Below, piece after piece: positions 12,721 through 63,553 of a stretch of DNA of 64,000 nt. The notes below the pieces were generated by a model. The model did not search any database and was not told the DNA's origin. It saw only the letters and a list, made by a program, of their open reading frames with translations. Every line of letters begins with the position of its first letter. The first letter of the stretch is position 1. Source of the DNA: Fluviicola sp. Lineage in GTDB: Bacteria > Bacteroidota > Bacteroidia > Flavobacteriales_D > Crocinitomicaceae. The DNA is taken from positions 62,001-126,000 of the forward strand of contig NZ_JBCNJT010000001.1 in assembly GCF_039596395.1 (NCBI RefSeq). The letters are read 5' to 3'. The position numbers and the translations under genes were made by a program.

Positions 12721-12755
12721 ACATGTAGGGGCGAAAATTTTTCGCCCCTACATGT
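12721..12755 (+). terminator. Long palindromic terminator of the GTAGG...CCTAC family
   Basis: Arms ACATGTAGGGGCGAAAA (12721-12737) and their exact complement (12739-12755) are followed by T6. The GTAGG...CCTAC core recurs in the hairpins at 14991 and 28308. Confidence 0.85.
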
Positions 12756-61197: not shown

Positions 61198-62484
61198 TCA
61201 AACTTTCAATCGTCTGGTAAAGCTCATGATCGCAGCAAGCACCACAAATAATCCCAAACTTCCTACAATTAAAGCGTAGGTTTCCAGGTTTACAATGACA
61301 TAAAGGAAACTGTACAGAATGAAGATGGCTGCAAAAATGGTGAGCGAAAACTTCAGGGATCGAAGAACCGAATAAGCATACCAGCTTAAAAGTGCCAAAA
61401 TTCCACAGCCTGCTGCCACGTAAGACCGGGCAAATCCGAACTGCTCTGAGAAAGATAGCAGGATGACATAAAATAAAATGAGGGAAAGTCCGACCATCAG
61501 GTAGTGGATAGGATGGATAATCCTTTTTCCGATCAATTCGATGAGGTAAAAAACCGTGAATGTTAAAAGAATGACCAGGATGGCATATTTTACGGTCCGT
61601 TCGTTTAATTGATACTGATCAATGGTTTCCAGGAAATCAACCGATGCTTCGGATAGTTTTCCGTAAGGTTTGGAATGGTCGATCCCAAGCTTCGTATTCT
61701 GGGCAATATTCATCATGCTCCAGGAACTTTTGAAACCTTTTGTTGCCTCGAAAGCATCCGGGTTTGGCAGAGAAGTCCCGGAAAAAGATGGATTTTCCCA
61801 GTTGGAGGTCATGTTGTAGGTACTTTTCTTCGCAAAGCCTTTCAGGATAATTTTCCCGGATCCGTTGATTGTGTAGCTCGTTTTGACGTTGATTTGGGTG
61901 GTTGATTTGTCAATAGCGAATGGAGCTGTAGCGTAAAATAATTTGTCGGGGCTGGTTTCTGCCATGGTTTCCTGCTCGATTTGCAGTCCTTTCCCGTTGA
62001 CTTCTATGTTCCCCATGTTTGAAATCCGGGTTTCAGCCAGGGCCAGAAGTCCGATTTGCGCTTTTGAAAGATCGAGATTCGGATTGCTGAGGTTCGGCAT
62101 GAATTCCGCATCGGTATAGTTGGCCGATTGAAAGACCGGGAAGTGGTAAATTCCTCGCTTTTTAGTACTGGCATTTACGTTGAGAGTGGTTTTTTCCGTT
62201 TCGGGAAAGAAGAAGTAATACTTTTTACCGGCATTATTGCCTTTTAGAGGAATGCGAAGTACCAATCCTTTATACAGGAAATCACTTCCCCATTCGGAGC
62301 GAATTTCTTCTTTGATCGTATCAGCACGGTCTTTGCGCTCCTGGATCAGGAAGATGACCCGCGCCAGCGGAGCGAGCAGAATAATGGTGATGGTTCCGAT
62401 GAGAATGAAACGACCGAACGGGGCGTTTAAAAACTTCATGAACTCACTGGTTTCCGGTTTGTTTGTTTCCGATTGATTTTCCAT
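61198..62484 (-). CDS. creD: CreD-family inner-membrane protein
   Basis: A 428-residue membrane protein from ATG 62484; an upstream TTG would place coding sequence over the operator. An N-terminal membrane segment (about 24-44, FILIGTITIILLAPLARVIF), a long periplasmic region (about 50-310; DFLYKGLVLRIPLKG, NVKTSYTINGSGKIILKGFA) and six or so C-terminal helices from about 300. Matches CreD ('cell envelope integrity'/colicin tolerance). In proteobacteria CreD responds to CreBC; here it follows a winged-helix regulator gene and carries the same palindrome upstream, so control differs. Function is not well established. Confidence 0.85.
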   Translation of the reverse strand: MENQSETNKPETSEFMKFLNAPFGRFILIGTITIILLAPLARVIFLIQERKDRADTIKEEIRSEWGSDFLYKGLVLRIPLKGNNAGKKYYFFFPETEKTTLNVNASTKKRGIYHFPVFQSANYTDAEFMPNLSNPNLDLSKAQIGLLALAETRISNMGNIEVNGKGLQIEQETMAETSPDKLFYATAPFAIDKSTTQINVKTSYTINGSGKIILKGFAKKSTYNMTSNWENPSFSGTSLPNPDAFEATKGFKSSWSMMNIAQNTKLGIDHSKPYGKLSEASVDFLETIDQYQLNERTVKYAILVILLTFTVFYLIELIGKRIIHPIHYLMVGLSLILFYVILLSFSEQFGFARSYVAAGCGILALLSWYAYSVLRSLKFSLTIFAAIFILYSFLYVIVNLETYALIVGSLGLFVVLAAIMSFTRRLKV

Positions 62485-62503
62485 TTTTAAATTAGTTAAA
62501 AGA

Positions 62504-62520
62504 ACTTTGAATTTCAAAGT
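62504..62520. promoter_or_regulatory. Perfect 17-nt palindromic operator upstream of creD
   Basis: ACTTTGAATTTCAAAGT: 8-base arms perfectly complementary about a central T. Ends 19 bases before the creD ATG and shares flanks AAAGA/AAA with the copy at 63453. Probably bound by the winged-helix regulator encoded next to it. Confidence 0.75.
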
Positions 62521-62538
62521 AAATAGATAAAAAAATAG

Positions 62539-62838
62539 TTATTTGCTGGTTTTAATCAATTGCTCAAGCGCGGCCAAATGCCTGGCAAATGTTTGTTTTC
62601 CAAGTAGAGTTGCTTCATAGGTGGTATTGGGTTTTTTACCGATAAATTGTTTGCGGATAAGGATGTATTCAGACGTTTCAAGTGCCTTGATATGCGATGC
62701 CAGGTTTCCATCGGTTACTTCCAGCAGTTCTTTGAGCCGGTTAAAGTCCACGGAGTCATTCACCATCAGCACAGACATGATTCCCAGCCTGATCCGGTGG
62801 TCGAATGTTTTATTGATATCTGATATGATACTTGTCAT
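62539..62838 (-). CDS. Small winged-helix transcriptional regulator
   Basis: A 99-residue regulator; ATG 62838 is chosen over a start 25 residues upstream, since that one would run through the preceding gene's coding region. Single winged-helix DNA-binding domain: FDHRIRLGIMSVLMVNDSVD, FNRLKELLEVTDGNLASHIK (recognition helix) and LIRKQFIGKKPNTTYEATLL (wing). Matches the HTH_34/MarR-ArsR style with no ligand domain visible. Its ATG shares one base with the stop of the membrane-protein gene (TAATG). Likely binds the palindromes at 62504 and 63453; creD follows on the same strand. Confidence 0.88.
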   Translation of the reverse strand: MTSIISDINKTFDHRIRLGIMSVLMVNDSVDFNRLKELLEVTDGNLASHIKALETSEYILIRKQFIGKKPNTTYEATLLGKQTFARHLAALEQLIKTSK

Positions 62839-63446
62839 TATTTCTTGTAATCGTATTTCAGGTACATGTAAGCACCATAAAAAATGTGGCAAACTCCGAA
62901 ACCGAACATCCAAAAGTACAAACCATAACCAATATAAAGGCTATTTAATAAGCCAAGAATGATAAAGATGAACCCTAAATTTCTCAGGGTTTCGTATGAA
63001 TACCTGCTTGCGCTGACCAATGCGAGGCCGTAAAACAATAAAGTAACCGGTGCAACAAGTCCAACGGCGCCTTTTGTAATCAGTATGACAGCAAATAGTC
63101 CTCCGGTAATTAGCGGGACCATAAAGCTCATAATAAACTGTCTGGATACCTGGTTCCAGATCACTTCCTGTTTTTTGCGCGCTTTGCGAACAGAGAAAAT
63201 AATCCCGGTTCCCAGTGAAAGTACCATTACGAGTATGGCGGTAGTTACGATGGTAATGAATTCAGCGGAATCAAAAGGAATGGAGGAAGTCAATCGCTCT
63301 CTCATGGAATAAACGATTCCGGCACCGATCAACGCATAGGTTCCGGCCAGGATTCCGGAAATACCGGATAAAGACAAAAACTTCGAAGATTTTTGCATCA
63401 TGGACTGGATCTCCTGAAGCTGTGCTAAATATTTTTCATTTTCCAT
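62838..63446 (-). CDS. Multispanning membrane protein of the CreD locus
   Basis: A 202-residue protein from ATG 63446; an upstream in-frame start would place the palindrome inside the coding region. After a short N-terminal helix (MENEKYLAQLQEIQSMMQKS) six hydrophobic segments are visible (LSGISGILAGTYALIGAGIV, FITIVTTAILVMVLSLGTGI, SFMVPLITGGLFAVILITKG, and three more). No named family is recognised with certainty. First gene of the locus, 7 bases behind the operator. Coupled translationally to the regulator gene. Confidence 0.82.
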   Translation of the reverse strand: MENEKYLAQLQEIQSMMQKSSKFLSLSGISGILAGTYALIGAGIVYSMRERLTSSIPFDSAEFITIVTTAILVMVLSLGTGIIFSVRKARKKQEVIWNQVSRQFIMSFMVPLITGGLFAVILITKGAVGLVAPVTLLFYGLALVSASRYSYETLRNLGFIFIILGLLNSLYIGYGLYFWMFGFGVCHIFYGAYMYLKYDYKK

Positions 63447-63452
63447 AAAAGA

Positions 63453-63469
63453 ACTTTGAAATCCAAAGT
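63453..63469. promoter_or_regulatory. 17-nt palindromic operator upstream of the membrane-protein gene
   Basis: ACTTTGAAATCCAAAGT: same sequence family as 62504-62520 with one mismatch between arms and matching flanks. Only six bases separate it from ATG 63446, so a bound protein would block both transcription and access to the start. Confidence 0.75.
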
Positions 63470-63553
63470 AAAAGAAAATAAATGAATCGGTCAACTAATT
63501 TTGAGATTTTTTTGAATAATTCGGATTAAGTTGCTGATTCTCAATTGAGGTCT

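Follow-up and report, generated by a model that had tools for sequence, protein, structure and literature searches.

The window, by which we mean the whole 64,000-nucleotide stretch of Fluviicola sp. DNA that was analysed, carries three genes running in one direction on the minus strand, placed as the initial annotation had placed them. The first (62838-63446) encodes an inner-membrane protein of 202 residues with six transmembrane helices (the 6-TM protein), the proposed sensor and partner of a regulator encoded by the second (62539-62838); a TAATG overlap joins the two genes. The regulator is a winged-helix protein of 99 residues and belongs to the HTH_34 family (PF13601, E = 6e-29, 100 bits against a cut-off of 27). 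The third gene (61198-62484) is creD, a putative target, and its product is the inner-membrane protein CreD (PF06123, E = 1e-96, 325 bits over residues 24-426; NF008712, 332 bits against a cut-off of 275).

The 6-TM protein matches no family. No convincing relative was found in Pfam, NCBIfam or the PDB, and a fold search of the PDB gave no match at E ≤ 0.001. The AlphaFold2 model (pLDDT 86) places helices at residues 2-20, 28-47, 61-91, 99-124, 128-149, 152-170 and 175-199. A conserved N-terminal helix, predicted to be cytosolic by the positive-inside rule, precedes the six transmembrane helices, and in the N-terminal region of this conserved family (A1) I13, M17, S20, S25, S27 and G28 are invariant. 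The AlphaFold2 model of the regulator (pLDDT 94) has its recognition helix at residues 43-55, with DGNLASH invariant, and the nearest structures are 1ub9 (TM 0.86) and the PadR protein Rv3488. At the level of sequence HTH_34 is the best Pfam family; similarity to PadR is weak (11 of 33 members of the regulator family match weakly, the best at 1.4e-4) and the score against HTH_5 is below the cut-off.

Two palindromes lie where the initial annotation had noted them. The one before the 6-TM gene, ACTTTGAAATCCAAAGT (63453-63469), ends six bases from the ATG; the one before creD, ACTTTGAATTTCAAAGT (62504-62520), has perfect 8-bp arms. Odd palindromes whose arms reach eight bases or more number three in the window where 1.1 are expected, so a single perfect 17-mer palindrome could arise by chance. 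The two sites, however, are identical at 25 of 28 positions, and their conservation settles the matter. Alignment of related loci further reveals that the conserved unit is 22 nucleotides and not the 17 first proposed: it reads ACTTTG-N5-CAAAGT-NCTTT, with a third half-site, (A/T)CTTT, immediately after the palindrome. The third half-site is kept at both positions despite their differing distances from the start codon and therefore belongs to the operator. In these terms operator 1, ACTTTGGATTTCAAAGTTCTTT, occupies 63448-63469 of the minus strand before the 6-TM gene, and operator 2, ACTTTGAAATTCAAAGTTCTTT, occupies 62499-62520 of the same strand before creD. Elsewhere in the window, at 12726-12750, there is a perfect palindrome with 12-bp arms, TAGGGGCGAAAATTTTTCGCCCCTA, possibly a terminator.

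Conservation was assessed in two samples of loci. The first, selected by the regulator, comprises 80 loci from one scan of genome contigs, 764 kb in all. Of these, 79 contain the 6-TM gene; it nearly always precedes the regulator gene, either immediately or with one or two small genes in between. Counts of strict palindromes are 79 ahead of the 6-TM gene (operator 1 recurs in 79 of the 80 loci), 85 beyond the regulator gene, spread over 78 loci, and just three at other places; the prediction that the palindrome would be found upstream of orthologous loci is thus borne out. The second sample is unbiased with respect to the regulator, its loci having been selected by the 6-TM profile alone. That profile matches 81 of 248 Bacteroidota genomes, with one copy in each, and all 70 loci that were read have the regulator gene downstream in the same orientation. 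An operator with at most one mismatch stands within 130 bp upstream of the 6-TM gene in 64 of these 70 loci, compared with 2 of approximately 2,379 control chunks. Conservation and these statistics establish the gene pair and the operator. Judged by gene order, the invariant partner of the regulator is the 6-TM protein, not CreD.

Operator and regulator also occur together genome by genome. The exact operator is found in 72 of the 81 genomes with the 6-TM gene as against 21 of the 167 without it (Fisher 7e-33, an indicative value since related genomes are not independent); near matches are present in most of those genomes read among the nine that have the 6-TM gene and no exact operator. Of the 21 operator-bearing genomes that lack the 6-TM gene, 20 have another HTH_34 relative. 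Over all 248 genomes, which again are not independent where related, the exact operator is carried by 92 of the 146 that have an HTH_34 relative and by only 1 of the 102 that have none. A divergent HTH_34 subfamily (loci L241-L248) adjoins a protein with four or five transmembrane helices, probably homologous to the 6-TM protein (hhalign 82%, E 1e-5), and has the same palindrome with other targets, which suggests that the pairing of regulator and membrane protein is older than the choice of targets. Neighbours of this second subfamily include, for example, carboxypeptidase-like and TonB-type receptor genes. In loci L291-L297, from genomes of family f17, there are sites of the form ACTTTGnnTTGTAAAGTTCTTT together with distant HTH_34 relatives, and the 6-TM gene is absent; these may be a related regulon or chance. 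One locus (L020), on a chromosome titled Glaciecola amylolytica (CP034120.1), is Fluviicola-like with a regulator 92% identical, and the record is probably misnamed.

Searches of the organism's own genome with the 17-mer and mismatches gave 11 matches as against 12-13 in a control, counts that are not distinguishable, and only matches to the exact or 22-nucleotide operator are informative there. There are exactly four perfect operators, two inside the window and two outside. One of the outside sites is 26 nucleotides before the gene of a 94-residue membrane protein (L004:1549-1833), the other 38 nucleotides before a gene for a BchE-like B12/radical-SAM enzyme (L131:2924-4384; own genome C1:1191923-1193383), which scores 501 bits against TIGR02026 with a cut-off of 481. 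Related species retain each of these two sites ahead of the corresponding gene: six Fluviicola-group genomes do so for the 94-residue family and four for the BchE-like gene. We observe in passing that a BchE-like anaerobic cyclase sits behind the operator in a Fluviicola-group genome.

Across the 80 loci, creD follows the second operator in 61. In the others its place is taken by genes for COQ4-like (PF05019), DUF4153 (PF13687), MpaB (PF09995) or small membrane proteins, by the 94-residue family or by exosortase targets. Genes for DUF2809 and DUF1361 proteins often come next; DUF2809 occurs in 24 of the 80 loci and is absent beside the 6-TM/regulator pair within the window. Trans sites in other families precede genes of the 94-residue family, COQ4, MpaB, DUF4153-type, YiiX and XrtN VIT-domain genes, the last at L272:162-2502. 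Genes for exosortase K and an MSEP-CTERM protein follow the second operator in one genome (L135:4255-4963), and the distribution of sites suggests that the orphan sorting systems exosortase K/MSEP-CTERM and XrtN may be under the HTH_34 regulator. Conservation likewise establishes the target set. The creD genes remote from the pair, which might have been expected to carry the operator, lack it in 28 of 29 cases, making CreD an optional rather than an obligatory target. The locus had been described as a CreD locus with a regulon consisting of its own operon and creD. Both sites are indeed conserved, that at creD included, but what stays constant is the pair of 6-TM protein and regulator, CreD is exchangeable and the regulon reaches further, so the label is probably wrong.

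We infer that the HTH_34 protein, whose recognition helix is as invariant as the operator, binds that operator. The reading we favour, and hold to be reasonably probable, is that it does so as a local repressor controlled by the co-encoded 6-TM protein. Its targets would be its own operon, creD and the two distant genes, for the 94-residue membrane protein and the BchE-like enzyme. The 6-TM protein would sense a membrane condition and control the repressor. In the simplest case its conserved N-terminal cytosolic helix would tether the repressor to the membrane, and with the repressor thus removed genes for membrane upkeep would be switched on. Autoregulation with control of the downstream gene, proposed at the outset, remains the best reading; regulator and palindromes belong together, and both sites are conserved. 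A one-component switch, as the system had been called, is probably a misnomer given that the 6-TM protein never leaves the regulator in the unbiased sample; gene content makes an envelope-stress switch plausible.

The 6-TM protein could instead simply be a regulated product. The system would then be an autorepressor only, with the HTH_34 protein sensing a cytosolic small molecule and the 6-TM protein as another membrane-maintenance target. Some winged-helix proteins of the ArsR and PadR families bind ligands directly, and the operator stands on the 6-TM gene just as it does on other targets. However, that gene accompanies the regulator in every one of the 70 loci, whereas the remaining targets are freely swapped, and the second subfamily retains the coupling with targets that differ. 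Moreover cysteine is absent from 75 of 76 regulator sequences and there is no ligand domain, which favours the partner as the sensor; the regulator probably does not sense by itself. We consider the autorepressor explanation unlikely.

The position of the operator bears on the sign of regulation. Flavobacterial sigma-A promoters have a box, TAnnTTTG, at -12 to -5 (PMC9723704). Such a -7 box, TTACTTTG, lies at 63464-63471 on the minus strand, mostly within operator 1, and a TTG at 63492-63494 on the same strand, 20 nucleotides before the box, provides the -33 element. Among 79 loci, 70% have a TTG 17-23 nucleotides upstream of the -7 box, mostly at 19-20, as opposed to 11% of shuffles. At the 6-TM promoter both the -7 box and the probable start site fall under operator 1. 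The overlap with the box is established by conservation, and it is where a classical repressor would sit. Repression is therefore likely at the 6-TM gene, and the direct repression suggested there by the initial annotation is favoured. The site on the creD side lacks a -33 TTG and has a poor match to the -7 box, which leaves the promoter and the sign of regulation less clear there. A T7 tract (62529-62535, minus strand) lies before operator 2. Of 75 loci, 68 have a run of six or more T ahead of the second operator, compared with 6 of 79 at the first. We considered whether the tract is a terminator and rejected this: there is no hairpin ahead of it (mean z +0.4) and similar tracts precede the trans sites at YiiX genes. 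The T7-8 tracts are approximately 8 nucleotides before the second operator and also before the YiiX trans sites (L271, L273-L276), again with no preceding hairpin; they may be a promoter element.

It is this T-tract in place of the -33 TTG at the second operator that might speak for the HTH_34 protein as an activator of these promoters and not a repressor, since some activator-dependent promoters have no -33 element. Activators usually bind upstream, however, and operator 1 overlaps the -7 box and probable start site of a promoter that has a good -33 element; we judge activation improbable. Finally, some other, global factor might bind the palindrome, or the palindrome might be an RNA hairpin or terminator, and its link to HTH_34 would then be indirect. 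We judge this very improbable. Folded singly as RNA, operator sequences do give a weak hairpin (-3 to -6 kcal/mol), but the operator follows HTH_34 from genome to genome. One family has AAAAG for CAAAG in the right arm with no compensating change in the left, which favours recognition of DNA rather than of an RNA stem, and the trans sites stand just before the start codons of recurring genes.

The CreB-type tag is TTCAC-N6-TTCAC, and no match to it with up to two mismatches occurs in the region upstream of creD. There is no kinase/response-regulator pair among the neighbouring ORFs of the window, nor among the conserved neighbours across the 80 related loci. The earlier statement that CreBC is absent here therefore holds as far as this locus is concerned. 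In proteobacteria CreD is tied to CreBC, and in Stenotrophomonas it helps to keep the envelope intact (PMC4689548); the likeness lies in CreD as target, and the difference is that the regulator proposed here is an unrelated one.

Models for a repressor under the control of a membrane protein, as we favour here, come from two other systems. In Bacillus subtilis SdpI sequesters the repressor SdpR after sensing the SdpC toxin (PMC1626106). There too a small autorepressor is co-encoded with a polytopic membrane protein, but our regulator is of HTH_34 and not ArsR type, the 6-TM protein has no match to the SdpI family, the targets are wider, the gene order is opposite and no toxin operon is seen. 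The dyads of HAAS and PadR-like winged-helix proteins (mSystems 2024, PMC11237479) likewise pair a membrane protein with a stand-alone winged helix, use no kinase and are linked to envelope functions. None of 73 6-TM proteins matches DUF1700, DUF1129 or DUF1048 at E ≤ 0.01, however. The stand-alone partner here is an HTH_34 protein with a fold near PadR Rv3488 and weak matches to PadR profiles. SdpI/SdpR works, and HAAS-PadR works or is proposed to work, by membrane-protein control of a repressor (PMC1626106, PMC11237479), and we propose by analogy a two-part switch like one or the other.

A DUF2809 (lipocone)-6TM-wHTH neighbourhood is noted in one sentence of a 2025 eLife paper (PMC12419801), which places a 6-TM protein and a wHTH protein in an operon with DUF2809 and membrane/isoprenoid genes. 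It is probably the neighbourhood described here. That sentence leaves the 6TM and wHTH families unnamed and includes no operator, regulon or CreD. Literature searches for Bacteroidota that covered the motif, HTH_34 and CreD gave nothing relevant, and neither the operator nor the regulon nor the link to CreD was found described. The initial annotation had put the system forward as undescribed; that stands for operator, regulon and CreD link within the literature searched, with the neighbourhood itself probably already mentioned. Its main point was right, its parts and scope too narrow.

On the comparative evidence this is a real regulatory system, conserved phylum-wide, and its kind would be that of membrane-protein-controlled repressors. 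More tentatively, it may represent a family of kinase-less membrane-sensing switches in Bacteroidota, each with a polytopic sensor and an HTH_34 repressor acting at ACTTTG-N5-CAAAGT-NCTTT on membrane-maintenance targets (CreD, isoprenoid-type enzymes such as COQ4, MpaB and DUF2809, and the exosortase K and XrtN targets); at least one sister subfamily would serve other targets. CreD, COQ4-like, DUF4153, DUF2809, DUF1361, YiiX and XrtN/MSEP-CTERM are proteins of poorly known or unknown function, and for such membrane proteins operator, regulator and targets are now concrete in about a third of the sampled Bacteroidota. The shared operator suggests one membrane response common to them, and an unstudied mechanism of membrane sensing becomes open to test.
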